Source: a virus
Length of the DNA stretch: 64,000 bases
IMG/VR virus record: IMGVR_UViG_3300042907_000878
Coordinates: 27,283 to 91,282 of that record
Reading direction: 5' to 3' (one strand)
Shown here: one piece after another, positions 18,449-63,960 of the stretch
Numbering within the stretch: position 1 is the first letter of the stretch
How the letters are laid out: every line of letters starts with the position of its first letter
The notes under the pieces: model-generated
Seen by the model: only the letters and a program-made list of their open reading frames with translations
The model's database searches: none
Told to the model about the DNA's origin: nothing
Translations under genes and position numbers: made by a program

Positions 18449-18860
18449 TGCGTTTGAACTCCGCATCAAATTCGATATTTTGAATGTTCATAGATTGTAA
18501 ACTTAATTTTGGATATTGCTGGGTAATTTCTTTTAATAAATCTACACTAAGGAATGATCTAATTTCCGAAGGGGCAAATATCGCTTGATTTAGACTTGCT
18601 AAATTTTTAGATTTGCCATAAACGTAAACGAGAAGATCAAAATCGATATCTACGATTTTTAATATTCCCCCAATCCTTAGTTTTTTATATGCTAATGCAA
18701 TTGTTTGTGCAACTTGATCGATGGGTAATTTTCTTAAAACCCCATCCAGAACAATTGCCGTGCATTCGGAATCTTCTGCAATATAATTCATAATCTGAGG
18801 TTCGCTAATATTTTTATACGAACCGTTGTCAACAGCTCTACTACCAATATAAATTTTCAT
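18441..18860 (-). CDS. Methyltransferase-like fragment, 139 aa
   Basis: Contains LRKLPIDQVAQTIALAYKKLRIGGILKIVDIDFD, which resembles the middle of class I SAM methyltransferases around the 'L-R-P-G-G-x-L' segment. The SAM-binding motif I (E/D-x-G-x-G-x-G) is missing from its N-terminus, so it is either a degenerate, non-catalytic form or a partner of another protein. Sits between a GT4-type enzyme and the Cys-rich protein, with four-base overlap upstream. Confidence 0.4.
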   Translation of the reverse strand: MKIYIGSRAVDNGSYKNISEPQIMNYIAEDSECTAIVLDGVLRKLPIDQVAQTIALAYKKLRIGGILKIVDIDFDLLVYVYGKSKNLASLNQAIFAPSEIRSFLSVDLLKEITQQYPKLSLQSMNIQNIEFDAEFKRNG

Positions 18861-43904: not shown

Positions 43905-44378
43905 TTAATTTAACAATATCCATGCTATTGCTCGCATTTTTTCAGATAAAGCTACTTGCTCTTCTTTTGTAATAATAGCTTCATTCTCTCCCAGTGTAGA
44001 CAATATAATCTCATGCATTTTATCTCCAAGAGATTTATACTTATTGCTAAGTCTATTATTAAAAGTAAGTTTAGCAGAGTCTATGTAAAAATTTTCAAAA
44101 GAAATGGAATTTACATTTTCATAAGAGGGCAATCTTTTGCCCATCTCATTGTTGAAAATTGCAATTATCTCTCTGTCAAAAACTTCGTCCGATCCCGAAA
44201 CAATACTTTTAACATCTTTTAACTCTTCGAATAATTTATCTGTAGGCTTTTTTAAGTCTAACATTTTATTATAATCTGTAGATGGAATAACCGGCTTATT
44301 AATATTGGGTATTGAGATGCTATCCCAAAAGAATCCAATGATTACCAAAGCTATTCCTAAATATACTCTAGAATTCAT
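43905..44378 (-). CDS. Membrane-anchored protein, 157 aa
   Basis: N-terminal transmembrane helix (VYLGIALVIIGFFWDSISI) followed by about 130 residues of mostly helical, charged sequence. No family recognised. One of five consecutive small membrane proteins between here and the cysteine protease gene; a role in lysis or envelope modification is inferred from this grouping. Confidence 0.55.
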   Translation of the reverse strand: MNSRVYLGIALVIIGFFWDSISIPNINKPVIPSTDYNKMLDLKKPTDKLFEELKDVKSIVSGSDEVFDREIIAIFNNEMGKRLPSYENVNSISFENFYIDSAKLTFNNRLSNKYKSLGDKMHEIILSTLGENEAIITKEEQVALSEKMRAIAWILLN

Positions 44379-44379
44379 A

Positions 44380-44664
44380 TTATTTGTCCACTTTAATTAA
44401 CATGGGGAAAATTTCATCTAGTTTAACAACGGCTTCGCTTAGATTATTTTCTTCGCAAGCATCCTTCAGCACCTGCCACTTTTGAACGATTTCAACCAAA
44501 TTGTCTTTTGTTTCTACTGGAGTTGGTGCTGGAGTTGGGATAATATTTGGAATATCTATTTCACTAGCCTTCTTCTCTAATCTTTTAAGAAGAGAGGAGA
44601 AATCAAATGATGATAGGATTACAGCAAGCCCAAGACCTAAAAAAATCATTTGGCCTGTACTCAT
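44380..44664 (-). CDS. Small membrane protein with Pro-rich linker, 94 aa
   Basis: One N-terminal transmembrane helix (MIFLGLGLAVILSSF), a Pro/Thr-rich linker (IIPTPAPTPVETK) and a short helical domain. Pro-rich linkers after an anchor are typical of proteins that span the periplasm. Overlaps the holin-like gene by four bases. Confidence 0.55.
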   Translation of the reverse strand: MSTGQMIFLGLGLAVILSSFDFSSLLKRLEKKASEIDIPNIIPTPAPTPVETKDNLVEIVQKWQVLKDACEENNLSEAVVKLDEIFPMLIKVDK

Positions 44665-44849
44665 TGGGACACCTCAGTCTTTCTAACTGAATCACCAACA
44701 ATCCAGCTCGCACAAAGTAGTACGATATTTTGAATTTGCTCTGAGCTTAGAGTAGTAACTCCTAGACCTTCTGTTGTTACAGCTAAGACGCCAGCCACTG
44801 CGACCCAGAACCTACGAGATTGTAATAATGCTTGAATTTTAGTTTGCAT
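44661..44849 (-). CDS. Holin-like small membrane protein, 62 aa
   Basis: Strong GGAGG ribosome-binding site. Short N-terminal basic segment (QSRRFWVAVAGVLAVTTEGLG) and a second hydrophobic helix (IQNIVLLCASWIVGDSV): two predicted membrane helices in 62 residues with charged ends, resembling small phage holins of the 'R-R/K-F-W-x-A' type. Would permeabilise the inner membrane at lysis. Assignment from topology, not from a defined motif. Confidence 0.55.
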   Translation of the reverse strand: MQTKIQALLQSRRFWVAVAGVLAVTTEGLGVTTLSSEQIQNIVLLCASWIVGDSVRKTEVSQ

Positions 44850-45183
44850 TTTTTGCCTCCTGAACGATTGATTGAAAATTTTCCGATGTTATTTTTTTTG
44901 ACTCTGCCAATATAAGATCTTGTACCTGTGGTCTTAAGTGGGCATATTCCTTCGGAAGCTTATCTTTTACAGCTTTACGCAATAGAATTTTGTCGAGTGG
45001 GCCGGGATTTTTAACCCGGTCTTCTAGACTTCTTCCGAACACATTACATTTCATTAGCAGTTGAAGAACTCCAATAATGATTGATCCAATAATTATGATT
45101 AGACCAAAATCAAAAGAGTAGTTGTTCTCGCCATCCTCTATATTTGAGGCTATCTCTTTAGCTAGATCGTCTGTTGCACTCAT
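44839..45183 (-). CDS. Small membrane protein, 114 aa
   Basis: Acidic N-terminus, one long transmembrane helix (FGLIIIIGSIIIGVLQLLM, about residues 27-45), then a basic/helical C-terminal domain with DRVKNPGPLDKILLRKAVKDK. ATGA-type overlap with the gene upstream and 11-base overlap with the holin-like gene. No family recognised. Confidence 0.5.
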   Translation of the reverse strand: MSATDDLAKEIASNIEDGENNYSFDFGLIIIIGSIIIGVLQLLMKCNVFGRSLEDRVKNPGPLDKILLRKAVKDKLPKEYAHLRPQVQDLILAESKKITSENFQSIVQEAKNAN

Positions 45184-45578
45184 GGATTCACCTGAATATA
45201 TTGTACTTGGGGTTGTACTTGAGGCTGAGTTGTCTGAACTGGCGGCTCTTCTTTTGGTTTACATTTACATACGCCGCCATCTTTTGAACATTGACATTTG
45301 AGCTTATTGCCGTCTGCCTGAACTATTTCGCCAGTCCCATTGCATTTACATGCGATTTCGGGGGCTGGAGGAGCTGGCTTTGGCACATTTTCCTTTTTAA
45401 TATTTTTCTTTTCTGTAGTATCTAAAATACTATTAACTCTCTCAACTTCTTTTTTTAGATCTGATTGAATGTCTCTAGATCCATATGCTTGAGATTGTTT
45501 ATCTGCTACATTATATTCGCTATAACTATAGCCAATAATTAGTCCAATCCCAAGAGCTACCACACTTTTTAAATTCAT
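45180..45578 (-). CDS. Membrane-anchored Cys-rich protein, 132 aa
   Basis: N-terminal membrane helix (LKSVVALGIGLIIGYSYSE), a Lys/Glu helix, a Pro-rich stretch (PKPAPPAPE), then IACKCNGTGEIV...KCQCSKDG...CKCKPKEE: six or more Cys in CxC and a DnaJ-like CxGTG arrangement, and a Gln/Pro-rich tail (QPQVQPQVQYIQ). Likely anchored in the inner membrane with a disulfide- or metal-bearing periplasmic domain. ATG 45578 overlaps the protease stop (ATGA), so the two are translationally coupled. Confidence 0.55.
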   Translation of the reverse strand: MNLKSVVALGIGLIIGYSYSEYNVADKQSQAYGSRDIQSDLKKEVERVNSILDTTEKKNIKKENVPKPAPPAPEIACKCNGTGEIVQADGNKLKCQCSKDGGVCKCKPKEEPPVQTTQPQVQPQVQYIQVNP

Positions 45579-46513
45579 GCGAAAATCTCCTTCACTCTTG
45601 TCCAATCCATCTTGCGTTTAAAGCCATTGAAGTTGCTATAGGCAAATGTTGCTCCAGCACCGATCATGCCCTCGGCAACCTTTTGTCTAACCCAGAAACT
45701 TCCATCTGGTTGTTCATACCACTTAGGACCACTATTCCAAAGACCCCAGCTATTTTGAACTAGGAATAGCATTTCATTAAATCTCTCGTAAGTGTCATCA
45801 CATGCAATTAGTGTCATTGCGTGCGCCCAACTACCTTGAGGTTCAGCTATTCCATTCTTATCTCTGTGAGAAGAGAATCCATAGTTAGAGCAAACAGATA
45901 AAGCATATCCATTAGCCAATAAGTCTCTAGCTTGCTCAACGCTATTTACAGTTGTTACTGTAGTGATTTTATGCTCTGCACATTCTTTGATAACTGGTTC
46001 TGGAATGCCTCTGCCGCCCCAGTTCATTCCTATTTTAGCATTGTACGTGGATAAGTCAATGCCGAGTTTTTCATATTTTTGACGGAGTAAGAATCCACCC
46101 GTCACACTCACAAATCTTGCGGCTTGTGAACAGTGCATTCCTTGGCCGCTAGACCCCCTAGACCCGTAGATTGGTTCAGTAGCACCTCTAGCAACAAAAG
46201 ACTCTTTCTCTTTACCATAGAGAATCTCATAAGCTCTAGTGATGTCCACAGCATTACGTGTTGCATGGCTAACGCAGTCGCCAGTAGTTTGTGATTCATC
46301 TCCTCCAAAGGAAGGAAAGAAATATTGAATTGCTTTGTATGGCAAAGATAAAACACCTTTTCCTGTGCCATACAATAGTTGATCGCCAACATCTCCAAAT
46401 AGTGGATGCGGTAATTCATCCATAAGTTTTAACATATCTACTGGATCACATACCGCGCCTTGCAATCCATTATTGTATTGTTCTAAAAGTTCTTCTGGAC
46501 TATTAAATTCCAT
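45575..46513 (-). CDS. Papain-like (C1) cysteine protease, 312 aa
   Basis: Catalytic triad in C1 order: Q75 and C80 in SQTTGDCVSHA, H231 in GSWAHAMTLIAC, N254 in LVQNSWGLW followed by the typical S-W-G. No signal peptide is visible. This family cleaves peptide bonds; no peptidoglycan-specific motif is apparent. It lies immediately before a run of five small membrane proteins including a holin-like one, so it may be the lytic enzyme, an envelope-processing enzyme or a prohead protease. The capsid genes that would favour the last option are not in the window. Confidence 0.8.
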   Translation of the reverse strand: MEFNSPEELLEQYNNGLQGAVCDPVDMLKLMDELPHPLFGDVGDQLLYGTGKGVLSLPYKAIQYFFPSFGGDESQTTGDCVSHATRNAVDITRAYEILYGKEKESFVARGATEPIYGSRGSSGQGMHCSQAARFVSVTGGFLLRQKYEKLGIDLSTYNAKIGMNWGGRGIPEPVIKECAEHKITTVTTVNSVEQARDLLANGYALSVCSNYGFSSHRDKNGIAEPQGSWAHAMTLIACDDTYERFNEMLFLVQNSWGLWNSGPKWYEQPDGSFWVRQKVAEGMIGAGATFAYSNFNGFKRKMDWTRVKEIFA

Positions 46514-47555
46514 TTAAGATCTCCCTTGCCGTATTTTCCCAAGAGAATTTTATAGCAGTTTCAATACCTGCTAAGTTTAGTTCTAGTTCACTATCTTGTT
46601 TTAATCTATGAGTTTCTCTCATATGATTTATAATTTGATCTTCCTGCCTTTTGCCAAGTTCAGCCCATTCGCCTTGACCATGAAACCAAATTCCATCTTG
46701 AGCCGATACTAATTTATCTGTTTCTACGATATAAGAGTTATTTCTATTCGTGAATTCCGTATGACCAGAGTAATCAGTTGTAATCACATGTTTTCCACAT
46801 GAAAGAAGTTCTAATAATTCTAGATTCCAACCTTCAGCCCGAACTGGAAAAACTCCAACATCAACTTGTCTCATAATATTATACACATCGCGATGATATT
46901 TTTGCCTTGGAATGAATCTAATTTTATCAGCAATGCGAGAACCCTTATAATAATTGATCCAATCGTTATTTTTTTCGCCCAAGAAAGGATTTTCGCACAT
47001 CATCCAAAGTTCTACGTTATCGTCTTTGTTAAAAGCCTTGTCGAAGCACTGTCTAATAATATCATGACCTTTGCGAATTTCCCACTTACCACAATTAAAG
47101 AAAATAGTGGGCTTTCTTCTTACATTATTATTTTCATTAAAGATTGATCTATCAATACCCAATGGTATAACTTTTGGGGTTGTGCCAAGCTCGTCTTCAA
47201 CAATATTTTTAGCCCACTCAGAGCATACTACAAGTTGATGACAAGATTTCATACTCCTTTTTTCTTCTGGAGTGAATTTATTTAATTCGAAGATTGGAAA
47301 TCCAACTTTCTCTCCTCTGCCTACAGATTCGTGTAGTCCATTTTGATGCCAAATTTTAAGACATGGTTGAGACCATTTTAGGTTCTCGTCTTTGTTTCTC
47401 CAGTCAAACTGGGCTAATTCTTCATATAGTTCTGGCTCAGGCTGGCCGATTGGAAAAATTGTTAAATTATCTCCAAGTTTTTCAGCTAATTGTTTTGCTA
47501 TATTAAATCCAACTTGGCCATATCCTAGACTGTTAATTGGAGCTTGTAGAAACAT
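46503..47555 (-). CDS. Glycosyltransferase, GT4-like, 350 aa
   Basis: N-terminal half opens INSLGYGQVGFNIAKQLAE; the central KVIPLGIDRSIFN is the classic hinge motif of GT4 enzymes. The C-terminal half has IFFNCGKWEIRKGHDII and RAEGWNLELLELLSCGKHVITT, the donor-binding Glu motif. Transfers a sugar in the cytoplasm to an unknown acceptor. Overlaps the protease gene by 11 bases. Confidence 0.8.
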   Translation of the reverse strand: MFLQAPINSLGYGQVGFNIAKQLAEKLGDNLTIFPIGQPEPELYEELAQFDWRNKDENLKWSQPCLKIWHQNGLHESVGRGEKVGFPIFELNKFTPEEKRSMKSCHQLVVCSEWAKNIVEDELGTTPKVIPLGIDRSIFNENNNVRRKPTIFFNCGKWEIRKGHDIIRQCFDKAFNKDDNVELWMMCENPFLGEKNNDWINYYKGSRIADKIRFIPRQKYHRDVYNIMRQVDVGVFPVRAEGWNLELLELLSCGKHVITTDYSGHTEFTNRNNSYIVETDKLVSAQDGIWFHGQGEWAELGKRQEDQIINHMRETHRLKQDSELELNLAGIETAIKFSWENTAREILNGI

Positions 47556-48063: not shown

Positions 48064-49188
48064 TCAATAAGAATCGGCTGAGATAACTTCGTTGCCAGCT
48101 CGCGTAATCAAAGCTCTGACAATCGCTGCATTTGTTGTATCTTTAACAAATCTCACAGATCCATCTGTCATTGCCATGTTAGCTCCACCGGGATGCCATG
48201 AGAAGATCTCATTATTTGGGCCGCAGTCATGAATACCCCAGTCATTAGCACCACAGCTTGGCTTGCCAAATCCACCAGTTTTATTGTTGTTGATAACATT
48301 TGAAACGCCAGCAGCATTGTCAGGATCGCCCCATCTCCATGAGCGACGAGCGCCCTGAACGTAAGGAGCGGGAGCATTCAAGTCAGGAGCGTAATCGGTT
48401 GTTGGAGAAGCATAGTTACCAACACCTTGCATCTTTGGGCTGCGACCAGTGTCTTCATAAAACATAGCAGTGTTAGATGTGCCATCTGTCGTTGCACCAA
48501 TCGTTGCTCCACCCTTATTAATATCGACTGTTCCATCCAAAACTTTTGCTGGGTCGATTTGATAAATCTTACTAGAGGAGCATACTGTACATCCATACGC
48601 TTTATAAGCAGATGTGCCATAAGCATTGCCAGTCAATGATCCGGGAGCTGGTGTTGGCCCAACATAACCCGCTTGCCACTTTGTAGTGCCATCGGGCATG
48701 ATCTCAGTATAAGGAGCTGTTGCATAGTCAATACAACCAAATCCAATACTATCGCGTCCATTCTGTCGATCACTTTCAAGTGCGTTTGTTGGACACAAGA
48801 ATGCGTTAATCACTGTTGCACTTGCAGTTACATTACCAGAAAAATTATATGGTAGTTGCAAGTTAAGCTGATTATAAACATTACCCTGTTCAATACTCCC
48901 AAGGATCATTGTGAATGCACTATGATAATCCTGCGTCTTATAAGTTGTGCTGCCGACTGTTACATTATGCTCTCCAGAGCGTGGAAATGTGCCTTGGGCG
49001 TTTTCAAAATTATGCGCGGCCAAAGCTAACTGTTTGAGGTTGTTCGTGCATTGCGCTCGCCTAGCTGCTTCTCTAGCTGATTGTACTGCTGGAAGTAAGA
49101 GTGAGATAAGCACTGCGATAATGGCAATAACCACAAGCAGTTCAATAAGGGTAAAACCACGACGATTAGCATTTTGTGTTTTGATCAT
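48064..49188 (-). CDS. DUF1559-family type IV pilin-like protein, planctomycete type, 374 aa
   Basis: Type III signal: [15 protein letters not shown] with prepilin-peptidase cleavage expected after G11, F12 at +1 and E16 at +5, then the hydrophobic helix and [16 protein letters not shown], a hallmark of DUF1559 proteins. The C-terminus has [18 protein letters not shown], the H-x-G-G-A/D-G-S-V-x-F signature of the family. DUF1559 is abundant in Planctomycetes and rare elsewhere. Base composition is richer in G+C than the flanking genes, consistent with transfer from a host. It has its own promoter, leader hairpin and terminator. No prepilin peptidase is in the window, so host processing is required. 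Confidence 0.93.
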
Positions 49189-49290: not shown

Positions 49291-50016
49291 TCATGAAGAT
49301 TTTTGATTTTTGTTGAACAAGAATAGATCTTCGATCTCATTATAGTTCATTCCTTCAAATTCTTCAATGGATCTGCTCACTGGAACATCCGCTCTGCCTC
49401 TCATGACCTTTTCCATATATTCATGTTTTGTTTTACAAACATAATGATTTAACTGCACTACGTCATCAGTTCCATTGTGATTGAACGGTCCAGTTCCAAA
49501 ATTTCCATTTGTATCTTTCCATTGTACATTTGCATGATGCGGATTTATCATTGAAATGTTAGGTTCAAGCTTTATAATGGATTTAATATGTTCATTTACT
49601 TTTTTTTGTCTCATTTTAAATCTATTAATTAAACTATTATTGTTTGGATCATAATCTTCTATAAAATTATTTCCAAAAAATATCCAATTAATGGCTAATG
49701 AGTGAGTATCAAATCCATATTCATATATAAAATCTTTAATATTTGAATGTTTTTTCAATACTAAAAATTCATCAATGTCAAAAAAAGCGGCCCAATCATA
49801 AGATAGGCCGTAGTTTTGTATAAAATGATTATATGCATACCCTTGCTTGCATTCCCCATCGCATGGTATTTTTAACATTGAGCTGTCATTTATATTTGAT
49901 CTATAATTATTCTCGTATAAATATATTTGATCAAATCCTAATTTTTTATAATGATCAATCCATTCTTTTAAATATTTGTCTTCATCTTTTGCGATTGCAA
50001 CTAACGCCAATTTCAT
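49291..50016 (-). CDS. GT92/GT2-like glycosyltransferase, 241 aa
   Basis: KLALVAIAKDEDKYLKEWIDHYKKLGFDQIYLYENN is the standard opening of the DUF23/GT92-like family (quoted in parts: VAIAKDEDKYLKEW, GFDQIYLYENN). DWAAFFDIDEFLVL supplies the DxD metal motif. C-terminal PHHANVQW and QLNHYVCKTKHEYMEKVMRG match the acceptor half. Probably transfers a hexose onto a surface glycan. Only a two-base gap separates it from the gene upstream. Confidence 0.7.
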   Translation of the reverse strand: MKLALVAIAKDEDKYLKEWIDHYKKLGFDQIYLYENNYRSNINDSSMLKIPCDGECKQGYAYNHFIQNYGLSYDWAAFFDIDEFLVLKKHSNIKDFIYEYGFDTHSLAINWIFFGNNFIEDYDPNNNSLINRFKMRQKKVNEHIKSIIKLEPNISMINPHHANVQWKDTNGNFGTGPFNHNGTDDVVQLNHYVCKTKHEYMEKVMRGRADVPVSRSIEEFEGMNYNEIEDLFLFNKNQKSS

Positions 50017-50017
50017 A

Positions 50018-50290
50018 TTATTTTTGAGCCTCTTTTAGAGCTTTTGGATCTGGTCGATCAGGATCGCCCATTTTTGCTGGCTTGTAATTTTTACCCATCT
50101 TTTCTTTTTTCTTTTGAATATTTTCCCAAAGCCCCGGTTTATCCCCAGCTTTTAGAATTGAATTTTTTTCGTCTGGGTCTGGTTCGCCTTCTCTGCGACC
50201 CGCAGTCGGTGGATCGTATTTTGGATAATTAACTGGTTTTTTTTCAGCTTCTGCGTATTCATTCATTGCTTCTAAATAATTCTTTTTCAT
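50018..50290 (-). CDS. Small charged, apparently disordered protein, 90 aa
   Basis: Lys/Glu/Pro/Asp-rich throughout (AGRREGEPDPDEKNS, KMGDPDRPDPKALKEAQ). No hydrophobic core and no family recognised. AGGAGAA precedes its ATG. May be a scaffold or disordered linker protein. Confidence 0.45.
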   Translation of the reverse strand: MKKNYLEAMNEYAEAEKKPVNYPKYDPPTAGRREGEPDPDEKNSILKAGDKPGLWENIQKKKEKMGKNYKPAKMGDPDRPDPKALKEAQK

Positions 50291-50298
50291 ATCTTCTC

Positions 50299-50937
50299 CT
50301 AGTTATGTATAAAAAGGTAATTGTTGATCTTTATGATGTCATTTCTATCTACTGACTTTCCGATTTCTTCTACTAATTTTCCATCGGCCTCGAAGCAGTC
50401 ATCGCTTAAATCGAAATCAAAATTTTTTATAATATTTTTATTAAAAAATAAACAACCTAAGTCAACACGTGATTTAACAAAATGCGTTTCTAGTATTCCC
50501 CATCTATTATGACTTGATATCATATTTGAAAATACAATCTTTTTGTTGTATTCTTGTGCTGTTGCTATTAATGATTCAAATGCAACTGGAACATAATAAT
50601 TATCATCATTTGTATATATAAGCCAATCAAAATTTTCATCAATAAAAGCATATTTTTTTCTATGCGGATATCCAAATTTACCAAGTTTATTTTCTGTTTG
50701 AATAATTTTAATTCTATTATCTAATTCAATAAAATTTAATAAACTCGTTTTCTCTTCGCAGTCATTTATTGGACCGTCATGAACGATTATTAATTCAAAA
50801 TTTTCATACGTCTGAGCCAATACGCTACTTATAAATGATTTGCAATACTTATATCTTTTTTTATTATCATTAAGATACGAAGCAGCCACAATTCTTATTT
50901 TTTCTTTTCTTATGCTCAAGCTTTCCCAATATCTCAT
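50299..50937 (-). CDS. GT2-type glycosyltransferase, 212 aa
   Basis: FISSVLAQTYENFELIIVHDGP is the GT2 'S-V-L-x-Q-T-Y-x-x-x-E-I-I-V-x-D-G' motif, and DWLIYTNDDNYYVP gives the metal-binding D-D. Transfers a sugar from a nucleotide donor. Overlaps the DUF5672 gene by four bases. Confidence 0.75.
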   Translation of the reverse strand: MRYWESLSIRKEKIRIVAASYLNDNKKRYKYCKSFISSVLAQTYENFELIIVHDGPINDCEEKTSLLNFIELDNRIKIIQTENKLGKFGYPHRKKYAFIDENFDWLIYTNDDNYYVPVAFESLIATAQEYNKKIVFSNMISSHNRWGILETHFVKSRVDLGCLFFNKNIIKNFDFDLSDDCFEADGKLVEEIGKSVDRNDIIKINNYLFIHN

Positions 50938-51596
50938 TTATTATTCCTGCTAATTAAAAAATTTCCGTGAAAGCCAAATGACTTATCTTTCATTTCTGGC
51001 ACGGGACGCTCTATAGAAAAATTTGCGGCAGTTTGTGGATCTGCAAATTTTACACCTCTGTCAATAAATTCCTTATAATATATATTACACGATAAGAAGT
51101 CTTCATTGACCGATATATCGTATACGCTCCTATTTAAACTGGTGTTAAAATTAAAATCTTTAAAAATACTATACGATGTTTTTAGAAATTTCTTTGACTT
51201 TAAGCAGAACCCCCCGTTTCCAACTCTATTTTTATAACCCCATTCAATAGGCCAAGGAGCGCCGATGTAATCAGATTCTAAAAATTTATCTGTCCAACAC
51301 TCTGGATTAATTATATATCCATCATGCTGGATTGTCAAGCAGAAATCTGTGGGAATATATTTATTTAAATCTACCAAACAGAATTTTGAATATTCAGCTT
51401 TATTTTTTATAATTGGTATTCTAAATATTTCTAGATTAACACTAGAAAGATTTTTAAACCTATTGATATTTATATCTTCTATGTCATCTGTAAAAAAATA
51501 ATATTTATCAAAATATATATTTTCTATTGATTTATCTAGAGCAATTAAAGCTTCTATTTTATTTTTTGTATCTATGCAACAAATAGATATAGTCAT
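50934..51596 (-). CDS. DUF5672-like glycan-modifying protein, 220 aa
   Basis: ATG 51596 has GGAG six bases upstream. LTIQHDGYIINPECW, YIGAPWP, VGNGGFCLKSKKFL, GVKFADPQTAANFS and FGFHGNF match the DUF5672 family, which is found among glycosyltransferases and has a GT-A-like fold; catalytic activity not firmly established. A member of the second sugar cluster. Confidence 0.7.
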   Translation of the reverse strand: MTISICCIDTKNKIEALIALDKSIENIYFDKYYFFTDDIEDININRFKNLSSVNLEIFRIPIIKNKAEYSKFCLVDLNKYIPTDFCLTIQHDGYIINPECWTDKFLESDYIGAPWPIEWGYKNRVGNGGFCLKSKKFLKTSYSIFKDFNFNTSLNRSVYDISVNEDFLSCNIYYKEFIDRGVKFADPQTAANFSIERPVPEMKDKSFGFHGNFLISRNNK

Positions 51597-51597
51597 T

Positions 51598-52329
51598 TTA
51601 TTCTCCAATTAATATATTATCGTAATATTTTGTTTCATTTTTATAACTATCTCCATCTACATATCCAATCTCGCATACAATATTTTTCATCAATGCGTAA
51701 GCTATTGCCATGGGAGCCGAGAGATTTCCACAGAATAAACTGCATGAATTTATAATTTCAAATAAATTTTGTATATTATCTATATATAATGACTGTACTA
51801 AATTTTTATGTGGAAAATTTACATATTGATTTACGTCTGTATATATAAAAAATGAATTTTCTTTTCCATGTTCATGTATATATTTTATATATAAATCATT
51901 TGCTGAATGTCTTCTATAGTCTAAGCTTCTGTTAATTATTAGAGAATTATTATATTTTTTAATATTTTTGATGTTTTTTATAATTTGAAAATTTCTTATA
52001 TTGAAATTTGCGCTTTGTAAATATATCGATGATAACTTTTCAGTCCAACACAATTGGGGATTTTCATTTCTCCAAAATGATAGATTAAAATTTATGTTTT
52101 GATTATTGTATATTTCAAATGTGTTTATATATTCTTGTTTAGATATAATATCATGCAATTCATTAAAAGTATTCTCTAGACCAAATGAAAAGTGATCTCC
52201 AATTTCAGATATATATAAATTAGTTTTAATGTTGTATACATTATATATAATAGCAGGTATATATAGTTGATGTATAAAATCTCCGAGCTTTCCCCCGGAG
52301 ATCATGTTTAAGGTTTTATTACTTTCCAT
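51598..52329 (-). CDS. GT-B-like glycosyltransferase-type protein, 243 aa
   Basis: MISGGKLGDFIHQLYIPAIIYN near the start resembles the 'G-x-L-G-D-x-I/L' of heptosyltransferase-type GT-B enzymes. NSCSLFCGNLSAPMAIAYALM near the end resembles their donor-binding 'S-G-N-x-x-x-x-x-A-A-A' helix. ATG 52329 lies inside the DUF4254-like gene end by 11 bases. Extremely A+T- and Asn/Ile-rich. Activity inferred. Confidence 0.5.
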   Translation of the reverse strand: MESNKTLNMISGGKLGDFIHQLYIPAIIYNVYNIKTNLYISEIGDHFSFGLENTFNELHDIISKQEYINTFEIYNNQNINFNLSFWRNENPQLCWTEKLSSIYLQSANFNIRNFQIIKNIKNIKKYNNSLIINRSLDYRRHSANDLYIKYIHEHGKENSFFIYTDVNQYVNFPHKNLVQSLYIDNIQNLFEIINSCSLFCGNLSAPMAIAYALMKNIVCEIGYVDGDSYKNETKYYDNILIGE

Positions 52330-52570
52330 ACATTTTTGTTGAACCTTGGTTATAAAGCTTTTGAGGTTTGCCAGATATGACAAGCTGATTGATTTCTTGA
52401 TCAATCTCTTGAATTAAGTCGTTCCTTTGTTGGTTTGCCACATTGGTTACTTTTGTCGCCTTTGCAATTTCACCATCTGTTGCTACTGGATTTCTTTTAA
52501 TGTCTTCACACATCCAGATACGAATATTTACTACAGTCAATTTATCAATTAAATTTCCTATTGTTTCCAT
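52319..52570 (-). CDS. DUF4254-like small helical protein, 83 aa
   Basis: TIGNLIDKLTVVNIRIWMCEDIKR and TNVANQQRNDLIQEIDQEI match the pattern of DUF4254-type helical proteins that accompany lipopolysaccharide or glycosyltransferase genes. Function unknown; by position a partner of the neighbouring GT-B-like enzymes. One-base overlap with the gene upstream. Confidence 0.6.
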   Translation of the reverse strand: METIGNLIDKLTVVNIRIWMCEDIKRNPVATDGEIAKATKVTNVANQQRNDLIQEIDQEINQLVISGKPQKLYNQGSTKMYGK

Positions 52571-53505
52571 TATATAGTCCTGTCTAATATTGATTTAGTT
52601 TGATTTTTTATATTTTCATATGAATTTATATATGTGGTATTAATTTGTTCCTGATATTTTTCAAAATTATGGTATATTTCAGTTAGTGTAGTTTCTGGAT
52701 ATATTGAAAGCTCTGGAGCAAAAGATCGAAACATATTTGATCCTGTAATTAGTACTGGTTTTTGAGCTGATACTAAGTAATCTAGAGATGATGATATGCC
52801 AACATCTTTTTCCGCTTCATAGAATAAGCAGTTTATATCATTTTCATTTAGTTTATTAATTACTTCATACTCAGATAAAAAATTAGTTGTTATGTTTAAT
52901 TTGATTCCGGGCTTAGTGATTGCATTGTAACACGCTCTAATTACATTTCCAGTTTCATTTATTCCATCAAAATATGCTTTGGGCATATGGAAGTTAATGA
53001 TGGCTTTGTCAAAACAATCATTGACATGACGCACTATTCTATCAAAAAATTTATGACCAAGAGCAAAGCCAAAACTTCCAATCGTTGGAATAGCATTTTT
53101 TTGTGTGCTGTTGTTATAATAGGCAGAAAGAGGTCTATCAGTTTTAAAGCAACAATTATTTTCTAAAGAAAATTTATCTAGTATTATATAGTAGTTAAAA
53201 ATATTATCATTTCTAAATGTTTCTAAATTATTTTTACTAAATAAGTGAGGAACGCAGAATTTTATACATTTATATTTATTAATTTCTTCATTTACCCAAG
53301 GTAAAGTCATATGCATATAATTGAATATAACTGCATCTGGATTGTATTCTTGACATATATTAAAAAATGAGGATATATCATTTAATTCTGCATATATCAT
53401 ATTATAATTTTCAATTTCTTGTATTGATATAAAATGGCGCAGACCTAGATCATAAACTCCACAAGCTTTTGTAATTCCATGATTTATATATAATACTGTT
53501 TTCAT
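52570..53505 (-). CDS. GT-B-like protein, 311 aa, paralogue of next gene
   Basis: Shares with the 299-aa protein upstream the segments IPTIGSFGFALGHK, ITKPGIKLNITTNF and SAQKPVLITGSNMFR, spaced alike, so the two are tandem paralogues. The layout (N-terminal alpha/beta half, then a half with a 'T-I-G-S-F-G-F' strand) fits a GT-B fold. Catalytic residues not assigned. Four-base overlap with its paralogue. Confidence 0.5.
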   Translation of the reverse strand: MKTVLYINHGITKACGVYDLGLRHFISIQEIENYNMIYAELNDISSFFNICQEYNPDAVIFNYMHMTLPWVNEEINKYKCIKFCVPHLFSKNNLETFRNDNIFNYYIILDKFSLENNCCFKTDRPLSAYYNNSTQKNAIPTIGSFGFALGHKFFDRIVRHVNDCFDKAIINFHMPKAYFDGINETGNVIRACYNAITKPGIKLNITTNFLSEYEVINKLNENDINCLFYEAEKDVGISSSLDYLVSAQKPVLITGSNMFRSFAPELSIYPETTLTEIYHNFEKYQEQINTTYINSYENIKNQTKSILDRTI

Positions 53506-54401
53506 TGGATAATACTTTCAAACTTTTTACAAAAATTGATAGGAGACCAATCCTCATTCATATCAAGAACTCCTTTGTGATTTTGCTGTATAGCGTCCTT
53601 TAGTGATATGTCTGGGTATGGCTTTATATATTTAAGTAAATGTCTAAATGTTGGATTTTTAGTTGTCAGGATTGGTCTTTTTGCTGATATGGCCTGATCT
53701 GTTACCGCTGCTAATCCATGCATATTTCTGTAATATGGAAAATAATTAATTGTATTTCTAGAACACCATTTAACAAGTTGCTCTTTATCCATATAGTTAT
53801 GTGTTAACTCGATCCTAATTCCCGGCTTTGTAATGTGTGATTTTATATCGGATATAATTTTCTGCGTCCTTTGCCATGAATCAGTCACATATGTAGCAAA
53901 AGGAATATTTATTTTTACTACTGCATTGTCAAAATTCTGTTGAGCCAGTTCTATTATTTCGGTCCAATTCTTGCCATCGGTTGCAAAGCCAAAACTTCCT
54001 ATAATTGGATACCCGCGATCAATATAAGTATCCGTCTCATAATTTTCAATCGGCCTTGGGAACCCATATATATTATCGTTATCTGGGATTGTTGGATCAA
54101 TCACTATGTAGCCATCGAATATTTTTGGGGTTAATGGCATTATATCATCGCCTTGTCCGACTTCAAGAACAATGCAATATTTTTTTCCTTTAAAATTAGA
54201 TAAGATGTCAGTTGTCATCCAGTTGTTTACTGCGACATGCTGATTAAAAACTGCAAAGTCATAATCCAAATGTAAAGAATTTTCTTCTGTATAATCTAGC
54301 ATGTATTTTATTGATTGATTAAGCGCGTTGTAGCACATTAATCCCGACTCATAAATGCTGCACTGCGCTTTTTTTGAATTGTAAAAAATTCCTCTTATCA
54401 T
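53502..54401 (-). CDS. GT-B-like protein, 299 aa, paralogue of previous gene
   Basis: ATG 54401 follows GAGAGATAAA; the upstream in-frame codon is TTG. Contains YPIIGSFGFATDGKN, ITKPGIRIELTHNYM and SAKRPILTTKNPTFRH, each matching the neighbouring 311-aa protein. The pair likely arose by tandem duplication and may act on successive residues of one glycan. Confidence 0.5.
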   Translation of the reverse strand: MIRGIFYNSKKAQCSIYESGLMCYNALNQSIKYMLDYTEENSLHLDYDFAVFNQHVAVNNWMTTDILSNFKGKKYCIVLEVGQGDDIMPLTPKIFDGYIVIDPTIPDNDNIYGFPRPIENYETDTYIDRGYPIIGSFGFATDGKNWTEIIELAQQNFDNAVVKINIPFATYVTDSWQRTQKIISDIKSHITKPGIRIELTHNYMDKEQLVKWCSRNTINYFPYYRNMHGLAAVTDQAISAKRPILTTKNPTFRHLLKYIKPYPDISLKDAIQQNHKGVLDMNEDWSPINFCKKFESIIQ

Positions 54402-54402
54402 T

Positions 54403-55173
54403 TTATCTCTCAATCATATTTTGTCTTATTGGTTGGTGAATTAAATCTGTTAATGCGGTATGAATTATTCCCATTTTTGTCATCATTTCATATACTAAAG
54501 TTTCGCTACAAAATATTTTATCTACATTATTTACATCATTTACAATTCTTTGAATATAATTGAATGCACTCGCATATATATTCATATTTTCACTTGATGA
54601 AAATCCAAACCAATCTTCTATCATCCTAGGAGGAAGGGTGTGAATTTTTTTGTCTGTCCATAAAATATTTTTGTCATAATTGGCGCATATAATTGATCTA
54701 CTTAGTGTTGAATCAAATCTAGCTCTAATGACATAATCATATTGTATATCATTTTCAAGTCTATATTCTTCTTTTAACATGTTACATTTCATTATGCTTA
54801 GCCATGAGGAGTAAATCATATTTACAAAATAATCTCTAGAGTAATGCCTAGCATTATCTGTTGTTAATATATGATCCAGCGGTATAACTGAATCCTTTAT
54901 GACTTTCTGATTCTCAAAAAGATATTTTTTTGGTTGATATAATTTTGTGATTATTTTATCTACATGTGGAGGATATTTACTATTTTGGCTTGAGTAATTC
55001 CATCCATTTGCCCACTCTGCGTAGTTTACAAACTGCTGTCCAATTAACGATTCATCATACCAAGAATGCACAAAAACATCTGCATTATTAGGATCAATCA
55101 GTGTATTTTTAATATTTTGATATGCATATTCTACAAATCTAGGTTGTCCTGAAATACAAAGCGCGACTTTCAT
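54403..55173 (-). CDS. GT-A-like surface-glycan transferase, 256 aa
   Basis: ATG 55173 overlaps the upstream stop (ATGA). KVALCISGQPRFVEYAYQNI and ADVFVHSWYDES form a typical opening of a family of bacterial/phage glycan transferases. YDYVIRARFDSTLS gives the likely DxD-equivalent site, and RMIEDWFGFSSSENM the substrate pocket. Family name not certain. Confidence 0.6.
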   Translation of the reverse strand: MKVALCISGQPRFVEYAYQNIKNTLIDPNNADVFVHSWYDESLIGQQFVNYAEWANGWNYSSQNSKYPPHVDKIITKLYQPKKYLFENQKVIKDSVIPLDHILTTDNARHYSRDYFVNMIYSSWLSIMKCNMLKEEYRLENDIQYDYVIRARFDSTLSRSIICANYDKNILWTDKKIHTLPPRMIEDWFGFSSSENMNIYASAFNYIQRIVNDVNNVDKIFCSETLVYEMMTKMGIIHTALTDLIHQPIRQNMIER

Positions 55174-55985
55174 TTGTGGTATCGACTCCAATATTTATAA
55201 CACTTCAAAAGATCTTCTTCATTTTTTACCTGAGTGGCTTTTATAATTGTAGACCACGCTTCAAAGTTTTCCACTTCATCCGGCGTTCCAAAAACAGAAA
55301 CAAATGGTGTATCATAGTATCCAACTTTTAGCCCGTCTTTAATTAATAGATTATAAGTTAAAGTTACGTAATATTCTCCGTTATGATTAATATTTTGCTG
55401 GACCGTTTCGTTGAAATACTTTTTTACATATTTACCTTTGCTAAAATAGTAAACGCCTGTAGAAGCATGTTCACTCATTGGATTGTTTGTATAACACTCT
55501 TTTTCTTTTATTTCTGACACAATTCCATCCGACTCTTTTAGGAATGCCATTTTTGTACTAGCAAGTGTGTGCGGGTGGAATCCAGTGTGAGTTAAAATAC
55601 ATCCATCCAAATTATTGTCTTTGACATGCCTATTAAAATCCTCTCTATCCCATAAATGTGGATTATCGCAATATGATACTATAACTTCTTCATTGTCATT
55701 TATAAACTCATAAGCCTGTTGAACAGTATATATTGGTCCAAATTTGTGCTGCTTCATAGAAACTATTGATGCATCAGGTCTTAAGGAATTTAATATTGAC
55801 CTCATGTCTGTTTCTTCAAGATGTCTGTCGTTACATATAAAAACTATCTCATCACCTTCATTAAACATATCTAGGATATATTCAATAATCCTTTTGCTAT
55901 TAACTTTAATAAGAGGTTTTGGATCTTTATATCCACGCTCTACAAATCTATTTCCTGATCCAGCCATTGGAATAATAATTTTCAT
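55170..55985 (-). CDS. Sugar nucleotidyltransferase, 271 aa
   Basis: N-terminal KIIIPMAGSGNRFVERGYKDPKPLIKV: the G-x-G-x-R...K-P-L/M-I signature of NTP transferases (quoted as MAGSGNRF and DPKPLIKV). VIVSYCDNPHLW holds the metal Asp. Together with the kinase-aldolase fusion directly upstream (four-base overlap), it likely makes an activated nucleotide-sugar or nucleotide-polyol for the glycosyltransferases downstream. Confidence 0.78.
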   Translation of the reverse strand: MKIIIPMAGSGNRFVERGYKDPKPLIKVNSKRIIEYILDMFNEGDEIVFICNDRHLEETDMRSILNSLRPDASIVSMKQHKFGPIYTVQQAYEFINDNEEVIVSYCDNPHLWDREDFNRHVKDNNLDGCILTHTGFHPHTLASTKMAFLKESDGIVSEIKEKECYTNNPMSEHASTGVYYFSKGKYVKKYFNETVQQNINHNGEYYVTLTYNLLIKDGLKVGYYDTPFVSVFGTPDEVENFEAWSTIIKATQVKNEEDLLKCYKYWSRYHK

Positions 55986-57382
55986 TTGGCTACCTTTCTC
56001 ATTTTTTCCGCTGTCATATTATTTAATTTATTGATTTCTTCATCACTTAGAAATTTTGGAGTTAGATTGCAAGCGGTCATCATTTGAAATATATTTTTAT
56101 TTATATCTTCCATTTCTTCCTTTAAAACTGCCGCATCTGGGAATAATGGTTTTATTCCAGTATTTATTTCTGAACTGATTAATGGTTGGCTATTTTTGAT
56201 TAGCCATTCTTTACATTTTTCATTGACTAATTCTGTTAATAAAAATGCTCGTTCTGATGTTTCTGATCCAATAATTAAACCATGATTTTCTAAAAATATA
56301 ATTTCTCTGCCTATATTTATTTTATCAATTAACTCAAATCCCGGAGTGGTATACTCTACAAAATTAAATTGAGAATCTTTAAATAAATCAGATATTATAT
56401 CTTTACTTTCTTGACTGCACAGTATTGCATTTAAATGTATTGGATGTGTGTGACATACTATTTTAGATTTTATTTTTAAGTGAAATCCAGTTTCCATTGA
56501 CGGATTATTTTTGCCACCTCTTTTAAGATTTGATATGTATGTCATATATTCATTTTCATTCCTGAATATTGGTAATATTTCTGGTATATTACAAACACAA
56601 TATCCATTTGATAAGCTAATATCTGACATTCTAGATCCTGAAGATTTAATAATTAATCCATTGTTGGTTTTTCTGGATATATTTCCACCTTTATCTTGTA
56701 CGATTGCTGGATCTAATGATATCTTTCGGCATAATTCAATAAAATCTATAGTAGACTCATAAAATATATCTAGTTTTTGAATAATTTCTTGAGCTGATTC
56801 GCTTAAGTTATTATTTATATAACTAGGAACAACTTTTCCATTTATCTTTTTAAAAGTGATAATTATATCAGCATTATTTTTTTGAGGCTCTATGTATTTT
56901 AGTTCATCTTCTTTTCTAATATTTATATTTTTTAAAACTTGTTCTTTTGTATATCCTCTTTCGTGAGTGTCTCTTGTTATTTTCCACTCTTTCTTTAATT
57001 CTTCATCTGTTTCAACAAAAATATTTAGATTAGATATATTAGCGACTGGTTCATAAAGAGCGTGTAGCCCCACGTATATTATATACTGTTTAGGATATAT
57101 TTCTATAGGCTCATCAAATTTACCAGTAGTATGATTATATAAAGATCTTTGTATTGAAGATCCTTTCATTAAATCTCTTATATGAATATAGCCTATTTCT
57201 AAGTTATTTGAATCTGGATTAAGATGTGTTTTATTTTTCCAGTGATGACTATTTCTTTTCCACTTATGAAGATCATCCCCGCTTAGATACAGGGATTGAT
57301 CTTCACCTAAAATATATTGTAATAATTTAGCTACAGTGGTTTTTCCAACTCCAGAGCTGCCAGATATGCATATTAAATTCAT
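55982..57382 (-). CDS. Uridine kinase/PRK-like kinase fused to class II aldolase, 466 aa
   Basis: Residues 1-180: P-loop kinase with ISGSSGVGKTT (Walker A, 6-16), SGDDLHKW, YNHTTGKFDEP and YIIYVGLHALYEP, the order seen in uridine kinase/phosphoribulokinase proteins. Residues about 205-420: class II aldolase/adducin domain with DKGGNISRK, IIKSSGSRMSD, CHTHPIHLNAIL (metal His-x-His) and LENHGLII (third metal His). The fusion suggests successive phosphorylation and aldol cleavage/condensation (or dehydration) of a small sugar. Linked by four-base overlaps to the nucleotidyltransferase and the C-methyltransferase. Confidence 0.8.
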   Translation of the reverse strand: MNLICISGSSGVGKTTVAKLLQYILGEDQSLYLSGDDLHKWKRNSHHWKNKTHLNPDSNNLEIGYIHIRDLMKGSSIQRSLYNHTTGKFDEPIEIYPKQYIIYVGLHALYEPVANISNLNIFVETDEELKKEWKITRDTHERGYTKEQVLKNINIRKEDELKYIEPQKNNADIIITFKKINGKVVPSYINNNLSESAQEIIQKLDIFYESTIDFIELCRKISLDPAIVQDKGGNISRKTNNGLIIKSSGSRMSDISLSNGYCVCNIPEILPIFRNENEYMTYISNLKRGGKNNPSMETGFHLKIKSKIVCHTHPIHLNAILCSQESKDIISDLFKDSQFNFVEYTTPGFELIDKINIGREIIFLENHGLIIGSETSERAFLLTELVNEKCKEWLIKNSQPLISSEINTGIKPLFPDAAVLKEEMEDINKNIFQMMTACNLTPKFLSDEEINKLNNMTAEKMRKVAK

Positions 57383-58587
57383 GATTCTATTATTTCAAAT
57401 TTTGGACATGGGACAATGAATTTACCTCCGCACTGTAAAAAGTTCTGTTCTCTTTGAATGAACTCATTAATGAAATGCCAAGGTAGAACAAGCATATAAT
57501 CTGGAGGATTTTGTCTCATTTCTTCTTCCGAGATAATAGGAATATTTGTTCCTGCTGTATATAATCCAAATTTATACGGGCTACGCTCAACTAATTTTTG
57601 AACCAGTCTTGAATCAATACCAAAGTATTGAAGCAGCGTGTTGCCTTTAGTAGATGCCCCATAGCCATAAACTGTCTTTCCTTCAGCCCGTGCAGACTCA
57701 AGAAATTTAACGGTTTCATCTTTAAGATCATTAATTCTATTGAAAAAATGAATCCATGTATTTTGGTTATCTAATTCAAGTGTTTTTTCATATGCAAGTA
57801 AGGATTGTACATTAAAATCGTAGACATCTCTCTTTTGTTGATTTGCAAACTTTTTAACATCTGCAATATCTTTTACTGCATACACTCTAAAGCTTCCACC
57901 GTTAACATCGTTCAATTCGCAATTAAGAATCTTAAACCCATTTCTTTCGAAAATTTTCTTAATGTTGAATAGCGAGTAATAATACATATGCTCATGGCAG
58001 ATATTATCAAATGCTAATTGGTTAATCATCAGAGGAGTATAGGACATTTGCACGACCCATATTCCATTATCATCAAGTACATCGTACACATCTTTTACAA
58101 ACTTATCTGGATTTGGAACGTCATAAAACATTGCGATTGTAGTAACTACATCGGCTTTGAAATTTTCCGGTAGAACTTCTTTTGAAAAGTAATCTTGGAT
58201 AATTGTCGCATATTTACTAGATTCATTTTTAAAAGAGTCGTCTGCTGGATCAACACCATATTTTTTATAATTATTTGGAACTTGAGAAAGTAGAGTTCCA
58301 TCGTTACATGCAATATCCAGCCAAGTTTTTTCTCCTTGGTGATTTACAATGTGTGTGATATCGTCCACTATCTTTTTAAGCTCATTCTTCATTGTTTGAT
58401 TAGTGCCAGACCGATACCAATATTTCCCCCACATGGTATCGCATGGTGGCTGTTCCGATAACCTTACAGCTCCACTATCCTCTTCCAAGACAAGTTTTAG
58501 TTCATATTTTTCAATCGGGTTTTTTAGCTGATCCTCTGTTAAAAAATCAGAAACACATATCTTTCCTAAGCTAAATAATTCAATCAC
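57379..58587 (-). CDS. Sugar C-methyltransferase-like protein, 402 aa
   Basis: GTG start at 58587 preceded by GGAG. SAM motif I TWLDIACNDGTLLSQV near residue 90. NICHEHMYYYSLFN is the conserved H-E-H loop, and a C-terminal alpha/beta domain has VYGYGASTKGNTLLQYF, the layout of TylC3/NDP-hexose C-methyltransferases (two domains around the methyltransferase core). The usual N-terminal four-Cys zinc site is not complete. Probably adds a branch methyl to the NDP-sugar made by the neighbouring genes. Confidence 0.78.
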   Translation of the reverse strand: MIELFSLGKICVSDFLTEDQLKNPIEKYELKLVLEEDSGAVRLSEQPPCDTMWGKYWYRSGTNQTMKNELKKIVDDITHIVNHQGEKTWLDIACNDGTLLSQVPNNYKKYGVDPADDSFKNESSKYATIIQDYFSKEVLPENFKADVVTTIAMFYDVPNPDKFVKDVYDVLDDNGIWVVQMSYTPLMINQLAFDNICHEHMYYYSLFNIKKIFERNGFKILNCELNDVNGGSFRVYAVKDIADVKKFANQQKRDVYDFNVQSLLAYEKTLELDNQNTWIHFFNRINDLKDETVKFLESARAEGKTVYGYGASTKGNTLLQYFGIDSRLVQKLVERSPYKFGLYTAGTNIPIISEEEMRQNPPDYMLVLPWHFINEFIQREQNFLQCGGKFIVPCPKFEIIES

Positions 58588-60994: not shown

Positions 60995-61894
60995 TTACTT
61001 GGTAAACCGACCTTTGTTATCTCTCTTGTTATGATAAGGACACTCATCAGAGCAATCGTCTAGCTCTTCGCGAAGTTGCTCGCACTCATCGGGTTCGTCG
61101 CAATCGCAGTTTGGAAATCCGCAATCGTCGTCCTCGTCTTCGTCCTCATCATTATTATACTGCGAAGAGTAGTCGTTGGCAAGAGGTTTTTCAAATTCTC
61201 CCACAACTTTATACTTCGCCGTTCGCAGCTTTTGATTCTGGCAGTCGTGAGGAACGCTCACAACGTCCGATGGGTCAACTTCGACAATCATCAGGCGATT
61301 AGACCCGCGATTAAACTCTGTAGCGTAGGCCAGTGTGCCAACGTGGAAACCATAGCTACAACCCAGATCAGGATCATCACACACATCATTCCGGGCCATT
61401 GTATGCTCACTGCCAACAGTGTTGGAGAACTTTCCGCTATACCAATCCTTGTAATTTTCTTGTACTGATTTATATGCCAAGAAATTTCCACTTGGAGTGA
61501 GTGGCATTTGACCATGCTCAAGGAACTTATAAAGCTCTTGCACTGCTCTGCGAGAAGGATTTGCCATTACCTTGCTTACAAAGTTTAGAAGAGGCTTAAC
61601 TGGAAGTTTTGCTTTCATAAACTCCATAATCTTTTGAGTGGCATAATTGTCAATATAATTGCCATTATACTTAACACCAATATCATCAACTTCAACTCCA
61701 GAAGCGGAAGCATATACTTCAACAGCTTTCTTAACACTAAGAAGTTCTTCAAGACCTTCATAGTCTTCAGCGTCTAGCTTATCTAAGACCACTTGCCAAT
61801 TTAGATGAGTTGCGTCAATATTATATACTTTAGCAGTATCCAAGAAGCTAACTGTCAGGGAGTTCTCTGTTCCGATAAATGCGATGTTACTCAT
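60995..61894 (-). CDS. rIIB: RIIB-like protein, 299 aa
   Basis: SGNFLAYKSVQENYKDWYSGKFSNTVG (quoted in parts) and GCSYGFHVGTLAYATEF are the core segments of T4 rIIB homologues, with MARNDVCDDP between them. After residue about 240 it carries a strongly acidic, Cys-rich tail (DEDEDEDDDCGFPNCDCDEPDEC...) not seen in T4. RII proteins affect the host membrane and superinfection or lysis in T4. Encoded with rIIA with a four-base overlap. Confidence 0.78.
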   Translation of the reverse strand: MSNIAFIGTENSLTVSFLDTAKVYNIDATHLNWQVVLDKLDAEDYEGLEELLSVKKAVEVYASASGVEVDDIGVKYNGNYIDNYATQKIMEFMKAKLPVKPLLNFVSKVMANPSRRAVQELYKFLEHGQMPLTPSGNFLAYKSVQENYKDWYSGKFSNTVGSEHTMARNDVCDDPDLGCSYGFHVGTLAYATEFNRGSNRLMIVEVDPSDVVSVPHDCQNQKLRTAKYKVVGEFEKPLANDYSSQYNNDEDEDEDDDCGFPNCDCDEPDECEQLREELDDCSDECPYHNKRDNKGRFTK

Positions 61895-63960
61895 ACTTCA
61901 CCATCCTTTTGAATTGTTGTAGAAACCAGATCAACGTATTGGGCCACTTGTTTAATTATACCGTCAAAATCCCTGTTGTCAATCAAAACTTTCAACAGGG
62001 GGTATTTTTCCTTGATTTTATTCTGAGCTTCGCAGTGCTTGATATCCAAGTCACCAATTGCCTTTTGGATTTCTTGATATAGCGAATGATTATGACGACG
62101 AATGATATTTGTAATCGCTTCGTAATATCCTATCTTTCTACTATCTAATTGACAATCGTTATATTCAAGTACATAGTCATCAATGATAGATGCAACATCA
62201 GTTAATTTATGAATATCTTGAAGAGCTTTCCACGTTCCATCACCACGCATATTATCTTTTGACAACATGTGAATGATCTCATCTTTATTAGTTTGCACTT
62301 CATCAACAAGATAATCCAGAAAATTTACAAAGTTACGCTCGCCCACTTTCAAACTATTGAATTGATTGTCAGTAAAAATATACACTGTCTTATCTCCAAT
62401 TACATCTCTGTTATTAACACTTGAAGTGTCTAAGCCATAATACTCGTTATCTTTAAGATAGTATCCATCTTTAGTATCTTTGTCTAGCTTAACGCCCTTT
62501 CTGTCTGCACCATTGATTGTATAGGTCATAGCAGTGCAGTTGTTGCCTGTACTAGTGCGAACTACGGCAGAATCCTTGTTAAAGGTCAGCTTTGAAGCAA
62601 AAAGAAAATCTGATTCCTCAAAGCCACATTCTTTAATGAGAACATCTTTATCTGCAACGTCAATTACAAAGATTGTCGATGTTGTCGCATTATCTGAAAC
62701 ACTTGCTTTTTGTAACTCCTTCATTTTAAGATTAAAATTAGTATTTTTATCCTTAATTACGATAACTATATCTTCGGTAACTCTATAGTTTCCATGAGTG
62801 CCAATTTTAATCATTTCGATTTTATCACGCCATCGGTCATATCTACAATACATTGCATCTTTTGACAGTTTTTCTTGATGAACAAGTGTAAAATATGAAA
62901 TATCATCATAGCTTGAAGGATATAATCCTCCCACTAGATCTTTTACAAATCTACGAGTCAATCCGCTATCATTCACAACTTTAAAGATTGACTTGAATTT
63001 CTCAAACTTAGATTGCGATGTATTAGTTTCAGCATTCTTAACTGACAAAGCGACCTCTTCAACAAGTTCATCTTTAACCTTTTGGATAAAACCGTTAGTT
63101 TTAGATCTATATTCAAGAGATTCGCGAGAAGGAGTGATATCAACATCGCCAATGCTAGCGTTGATGATTACAGCTTTATTGCCAATGAATGTATTCTTGA
63201 AGATCTCACTTTCACATGGATAAAGCACTTGACCCATACGAACGAAAACAGTAGAGGAGTAATCGGATGTATGCTCGTACTTGTCAAATCCATCAGCTTT
63301 ACTAAGCAATACAATCCTTTGATCTTTCTTGCCCTCCATCAAGTTTTTAATACTAAAGCTGTTGTTAATCTTTGGAGTAATATCAAACCAGCTCAGCACT
63401 CTAGTTACAGCTTTGTTAAAGTTAGTGCGATCTTCGTGCTTAACTGCAAAGCTAACCTTTACGCCTTTATCTTCAGTTGAACTATTTGCAAGTAATGAAA
63501 CAGAGGGTTCGCCGTTTTCATTTTCAAAACATAGGTATACATACTTATGTCCGTTGTAGTTATTCTCTACGGTGAATTGCTTTGTGTATGCGAAGGGGCT
63601 TTTTGAACCAAGGCCAAAGCACCCGACTTGAGTGTCAGAGCTTGTCTTGGTAGAATAGAAGTACGTAGTGTAGATCTTTTCAAATTCTTCGGGGTCGATA
63701 CCCTTGCCGTGATCGCGTACAGAGAACGAGTGGTCAATGAAGTCTGGGAAGTGGACTTCGATTGGAACATCGCCAATACCGGCATTTACGTGAGCATCTG
63801 AGGCATTTGTGCAAAGCTCTCGCACGATAGCCTGATATTGATCGCTATACAACTTAGATGAGAGAATGTTGAAAGCCTTGGAGCTGGTCTCGATCTTGAA
63901 TGTTGATTCTTGAAAACCACTTGAGCGAACAACTTTTCTTTTTTCATCTGCAATAATCAT
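61891..63960 (-). CDS. rIIA: RIIA-like GHKL ATPase-fold protein, 689 aa
   Basis: GHKL ATP-binding motifs in order: RELCTNASDAH (N box, near 47), VRDHGKGID (G1, near 82) and GCFGLGSKSPFAY (G2, near 112). This is the N-terminal arrangement of T4 rIIA homologues; the remaining about 500 residues are a family-specific extension. GGAGACAGAG precedes its ATG. Works with rIIB, probably at the host membrane. Its promoter lies outside the window. Confidence 0.8.
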   Translation of the reverse strand: MIIADEKRKVVRSSGFQESTFKIETSSKAFNILSSKLYSDQYQAIVRELCTNASDAHVNAGIGDVPIEVHFPDFIDHSFSVRDHGKGIDPEEFEKIYTTYFYSTKTSSDTQVGCFGLGSKSPFAYTKQFTVENNYNGHKYVYLCFENENGEPSVSLLANSSTEDKGVKVSFAVKHEDRTNFNKAVTRVLSWFDITPKINNSFSIKNLMEGKKDQRIVLLSKADGFDKYEHTSDYSSTVFVRMGQVLYPCESEIFKNTFIGNKAVIINASIGDVDITPSRESLEYRSKTNGFIQKVKDELVEEVALSVKNAETNTSQSKFEKFKSIFKVVNDSGLTRRFVKDLVGGLYPSSYDDISYFTLVHQEKLSKDAMYCRYDRWRDKIEMIKIGTHGNYRVTEDIVIVIKDKNTNFNLKMKELQKASVSDNATTSTIFVIDVADKDVLIKECGFEESDFLFASKLTFNKDSAVVRTSTGNNCTAMTYTINGADRKGVKLDKDTKDGYYLKDNEYYGLDTSSVNNRDVIGDKTVYIFTDNQFNSLKVGERNFVNFLDYLVDEVQTNKDEIIHMLSKDNMRGDGTWKALQDIHKLTDVASIIDDYVLEYNDCQLDSRKIGYYEAITNIIRRHNHSLYQEIQKAIGDLDIKHCEAQNKIKEKYPLLKVLIDNRDFDGIIKQVAQYVDLVSTTIQKDGEV

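Follow-up and report, generated by a model that had tools for sequence, protein, structure and literature searches.

A papain-like cysteine protease with conserved membrane partners in uncultured planctomycete phages: a candidate lysis cassette

In the textbook picture, phages lyse their hosts by hydrolysing peptidoglycan, and a virus that carries a papain-like cysteine protease directly ahead of a run of small membrane genes raises the question of how it leaves its host. We explored this question in a 64,000-nucleotide window (the whole stretch of DNA analysed, bases 27,283-91,282 of a 91,282-base uncultured virus record), which encodes on its minus strand, at 45575-46513, a 312-aa papain-like (C1-type) protease with an ATG start. 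The gene content and distribution of this locus and its relatives suggest that the phages concerned may break open host cells through proteolysis, which, if true, would be a new exit route from the cell.

The residues C80, H231 and N254, read as a complete C1 triad in a first-pass annotation of this DNA, are correctly numbered and are accompanied by Q75 at the oxyanion position and by the NSWG signature. The protein of the window virus has neither a signal peptide nor a TM helix, and it gave no match above the cut-off to Pfam or PHROG models, PF00112 included; among 45 family members, four matched PF00112, with a best E = 0.003. An AlphaFold2 model, for which the input alignment consisted of 45 diverse homologues, reached a pLDDT of 91.6 and a pTM of 0.91 and predicts a papain fold with confidence. 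A Foldseek search with this model returned 193 PDB structures at E ≤ 1e-3, papain-type proteases throughout among the matches listed, with the bacterial protease xylellain at the top (E = 3.8e-9) and cathepsins B, L and K next, and a profile search of PDB sequences gave weak matches to a cell-surface cysteine protease and to papain relatives. Viral BFVD models were matched as well, some of them labelled 'Peptidoglycan binding-like' and 'N acetylmuramidase'. The protease ORF is 93-98% identical in contigs of close relatives, against which a dN of 0.011-0.05 and a dS of 0.29-1.04 indicate strong purifying selection.

Five small genes directly follow the protease on the same strand, each overlapping or abutting, and thus form one tight operon with it. 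They had been described as five small membrane proteins, one of them holin-like; the five genes are indeed there, but a 19-residue hydropathy window detected a clear TM helix in only three of them (hydropathy 1.84-2.64). The first gene (45180-45578, minus strand; cluster 1, 20/52 loci), whose start overlaps the protease stop as ATGA, encodes a small protein with the Cys motif CxCxGxG...C.C, in which a short hydrophobic N-terminus is the only hydrophobic stretch (hydropathy 1.27); its weak PHROG match as an Rz-spanin (E = 0.021) was not credible. The genes that follow, all on the minus strand, encode a small membrane protein with one strong TM helix (44839-45183; cluster 3, 7/52 loci), a holin-like protein of 62 aa in which two segments are weakly hydrophobic (44661-44849; cluster 9, 4/52 loci), a 94-aa protein with an N-terminal TM helix (44380-44664; cluster 2, 9/52 loci) and a 157-aa membrane-anchored helical partner (43905-44378; cluster 0, 31/52 clusters). 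The hydropathy of the 62-aa protein is borderline (1.59), and no Pfam or PHROG holin matched it; among 75 neighbour proteins, three holin PHROGs weakly matched one each (E 2e-4 to 1e-2). Inverted repeats near the operon were trivial only. On the other side, a glycosyltransferase gene (46503-47555, minus strand) overlaps the protease start and belongs to the same operon; since it adjoins the protease in only three clusters, it is probably not part of the module. Around the operon, at window positions 16432-21585 and 49291-58587, lie many further sugar-enzyme genes, glycosyltransferases and nucleotidyltransferases among them; they are poorly conserved between close relatives.

A close-relative search with the protease returned near-identical copies only. 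Two DNA-pattern scans of IMG/VR, based on the motifs NSWGxWN and QxxGDCVSHA, recovered at least 186 homologous ORFs in uncultured viruses, falling into at least 52 clusters below 70% identity. Among the matches listed, catalytic residues that were absent from the search pattern were present in 78/80 (C80), 178/178 (H231) and 90/91 (N254) cases, and the oxyanion Q75 in 75/80 in the scan that did not include it; checked in this way, independently of the search pattern, the triad is all but invariant. The protease had no match among cultured phage records, and three diverse members, searched by tblastn, had none in 50,697 phage records either. Two family members (L073:6279-8336, plus strand; L144:3816-5768, minus strand) carry an insertion with intein features, namely a Cys start and a LAGLIDADG-like motif; the one in L073 directly precedes the catalytic cysteine and has an Asn at its end, so that the catalytic Cys would itself be the splice nucleophile. 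Large Cys-rich paralogues were also found (L142:6064-8358, minus strand; L088:400-2166, plus strand), in which the His/NSWG half is kept and the catalytic cysteine is gone; the nearby intact protease copy in L142 suggests that the Cys-less paralogue there is a pseudo-protease partner.

The pairing of protease and small membrane proteins, first noticed in this window, turned out to be a conserved module across very diverse phages. When same-strand genes at positions -2 to +3 were compared with genes more than six positions away in the same loci, taking one locus per cluster, small TM proteins accounted for 78/180 genes near the protease vs 22/322 in the background (43% v 7%; odds ratio 10, p = 5e-22), and at least one was present in 15/15 loci with full context. 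Each of the five window neighbours has homologues in other loci. The most constant neighbour is the 157-aa partner family, found in 137 of the 185 member loci listed, many of which are truncated, vs 2/38 non-member loci. This partner is predicted to have a membrane helix at its N-terminus and, behind it, a helical domain (model pLDDT 85); neither model nor sequence revealed a known fold or a PDB relative, for which reason a spanin or propeptide-inhibitor role was not assignable. The Cys-motif family of 45180-45578 is fused to a thioredoxin-like domain with CxxC in nine clusters and in no background gene, and this domain usually stands behind a signal or membrane anchor. A subtilisin-type protease was found upstream of partner and protease on the same strand in nine member viral loci and two genome-bin contigs (L254, L253/L265, L082, L098, L125, L104, L123, L130, L133, L064 and L128), at a distance of about 0.5-1.3 kb from the papain-like gene; taken alone, the subtilisin association is not significant (p = 0.18, 38 control loci). 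Moreover, partner proteins in some loci bear Ig/PKD-like exported regions. In prophage G132 (G132:C4, about 1.508-1.529 Mb), as in the 52-kb phage record G414, TerL comes directly after the module, and terminase and portal genes follow it in several other clusters. The same placement just upstream of TerL is known from T7.

A planctomycete host, at first only a guess, is now supported. A family member was found in 14/392 Planctomycetota genomes vs 1/396 Bacteroidota genomes, the sole Bacteroidota genome being the one that had been used as the centre; with centres removed, the counts were 13/391 vs 0/395 (p = 1e-4). Of ten matches in genome contigs to a pattern built on the catalytic motif, one (L251) is not a family member. 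Where the gene sits in a planctomycete chromosome, the encoded protease mostly bears a TM helix or signal anchor at its N-terminus. In addition, the window encodes a pilin-like SBP_bac_10/DUF1559 protein (48064-49188, minus strand; PF07596, E = 3e-44; 0/14 control genomes), which is 98% identical in a 155-kb relative (G001); the gene is of host type, probably taken from the host, and fits a planctomycete as host.

The first-pass annotation had seen no peptidoglycan hydrolase in the window and had proposed looking for a muramidase elsewhere in the genome. For the families searched, the observation held on extension: no peptidoglycan hydrolase was recognisable in the 91-kb record, and none among the scanned genes of G001, of which about 20, mostly other enzyme kinds, were covered by one search only (best 25 of 40 families). 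The contig ends of G001 fall at the same place in tail genes, which indicates that this genome is nearly complete. A Pfam scan of all genes of G414 (52 kb) likewise found no peptidoglycan hydrolase, terminase, coat, tail and replication genes being present. Across 30 member records (about 3 Mb), Amidase_2, Phage_lysozyme and SLT gave 0 matches each, while Amidase_2 and Phage_lysozyme together gave four in 27 non-member contigs (p = 0.044 vs members); Peptidase_M15_3 was found in neither member phages nor controls. Even outside the family these models pick up few lysins in uncultured phages (4/27), and contigs of members may not be complete, so that the absence can be taken only as suggestive.

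Among other genes, the window contains an rIIA/rIIB-like pair (60995-63960) homologous to T4 lysis-inhibition genes, with the family matches seen in the G001 orthologues. The less conserved genes of G001 (L023-L025) include a CAP-domain protein, a Cas12f1-like TNB-domain protein, UvdE, an RNA ligase and a thioredoxin.

On these findings, we lean slightly towards reading the operon as a lysis cassette, serving to open the envelope, in which the papain-like cysteine peptidase would stand in for the usual peptidoglycan hydrolase. The first-pass annotation had not included what supports this case most strongly: the conserved partner with its membrane anchor, the redox partner, the subtilisin encoded in a subset of loci, and the prophage proteases that are anchored in the membrane. 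The course of events that we infer, from timing and export to activation, substrate and lysis itself, would be as follows. The protease would be made late, cytoplasmic in the window virus and membrane-tethered in prophage forms, and the small holin-like membrane proteins would give it access to the space outside the inner membrane, where the membrane-anchored helical partner would hold, tether or restrain it. The Cys-motif/thioredoxin partner would keep or make the catalytic thiol reduced, which a thiol enzyme working in an oxidising compartment might well need; alternatively, the thioredoxin could serve to open envelope disulfides. The protease would then cut a load-bearing envelope polypeptide, and the cell would burst. 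Planctomycetes make lysozyme-sensitive peptidoglycan (PMC4432640), so that a protease alone may not suffice, and the load-bearing substrate could be a protein layer or peptide cross-links. A more far-reaching version, in which a widespread lineage of planctomycete phages would lyse by proteolysis without any peptidoglycan hydrolase, the papain-like protease (sometimes with the subtilisin) being set free or anchored outside the inner membrane, where the encoded thioredoxin would keep it active while it digested load-bearing envelope protein, is tentative and in our judgement rather doubtful.

The operon logic would be identical if the enzyme were a peptidoglycan endopeptidase with a C1 papain fold, so that the cassette would lyse through an uncommon muralytic endolysin and not through protein digestion. 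Planctomycetes possess peptidoglycan (PMC4432640), the papain-superfamily folds CHAP and NlpC/P60 provide a precedent for peptidoglycan hydrolases (PMC10318531), and the two peptidoglycan-related labels among the similar phage structures point in the same direction. We nevertheless consider a muralytic enzyme unlikely, since the top structural matches are true proteases (xylellain, cathepsins), the C-H-N triad with NSWG is that of C1A, the window protein is without a wall-binding domain, and the subtilisin paired with it in some loci speaks for protein substrates. Comparably unlikely is an envelope-remodelling or superinfection-exclusion module, by which host surface or periplasmic proteins would be altered during infection and no lysis would follow. 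The many small membrane proteins without an assigned role, the glycosyltransferase overlapping the protease start and the Ig/PKD-like exported regions would all suit such a function, which leaves unexplained, however, the position ahead of TerL in several phages and prophages and the missing lysin.

Phages also use proteases in head assembly. A function in maturing the capsid or tail, or as a virion-borne enzyme, was considered too, but no finding here points that way. The window gene lies far from tail and structural genes, its neighbours are membrane proteins, and some forms of the protease are themselves membrane-anchored. Known prohead proteases have a fold unlike papain, being serine/ClpP-like or herpes-assemblin-like and encoded beside capsid genes. 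We therefore rejected the head-protease reading on fold and context, and regard any role in maturation or in the virion as very improbable.

Lysis by proteolysis, if true, would tell which layer of the planctomycete envelope, long disputed, bears the load, and would be a source of specific proteases as tools. Independently of function, the protease family is large and strictly conserved in phages, comes with partners and a host group, and has no Pfam or PHROG model to name it. In literature on planctomycete phages combined with lysis, endolysin or papain-like/C1 peptidase, within a coverage that most subscription journals fall outside, no description of the module was found.

Compared with known systems, the protease shares with peptidase family C1A (papain, cathepsins, xylellain) the common fold, the Q/C/H/N catalytic set and the NSWG motif, but it is only 9-17% identical to solved members, has about 55 additional N-terminal residues and no significant PF00112 match, and is phage-encoded within a membrane-gene operon. 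The C1 peptidases of uncultured Caudovirales in BFVD (A0A6J5QDM8, A0A6J5TCZ4 and A0A6J5MXS7) have the same papain fold at 14-16% identity to the window protease, some carrying the peptidoglycan-related labels. The holin-endolysin(-spanin) cassettes of tailed phages likewise combine one soluble hydrolase with several small, fast-diverging membrane proteins in an overlapping operon, and both they and the present module sometimes stand directly before TerL; in contrast to them, the module has an enzyme with a protease fold, in which Pfam and PHROG searches recognised no peptidoglycan-hydrolase domain, and adds thioredoxin and subtilisin partners and a conserved helical membrane partner without known fold. 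Phage P1 Lyz is a SAR endolysin, a membrane-tethered enzyme of lysozyme fold with thiol-controlled activation. Its tether and redox control would have a counterpart in the module, where prophage forms of the enzyme are TM-anchored and a thioredoxin partner is encoded; unlike in Lyz, the enzyme there is a cysteine protease, and redox control would fall to a protein of its own.
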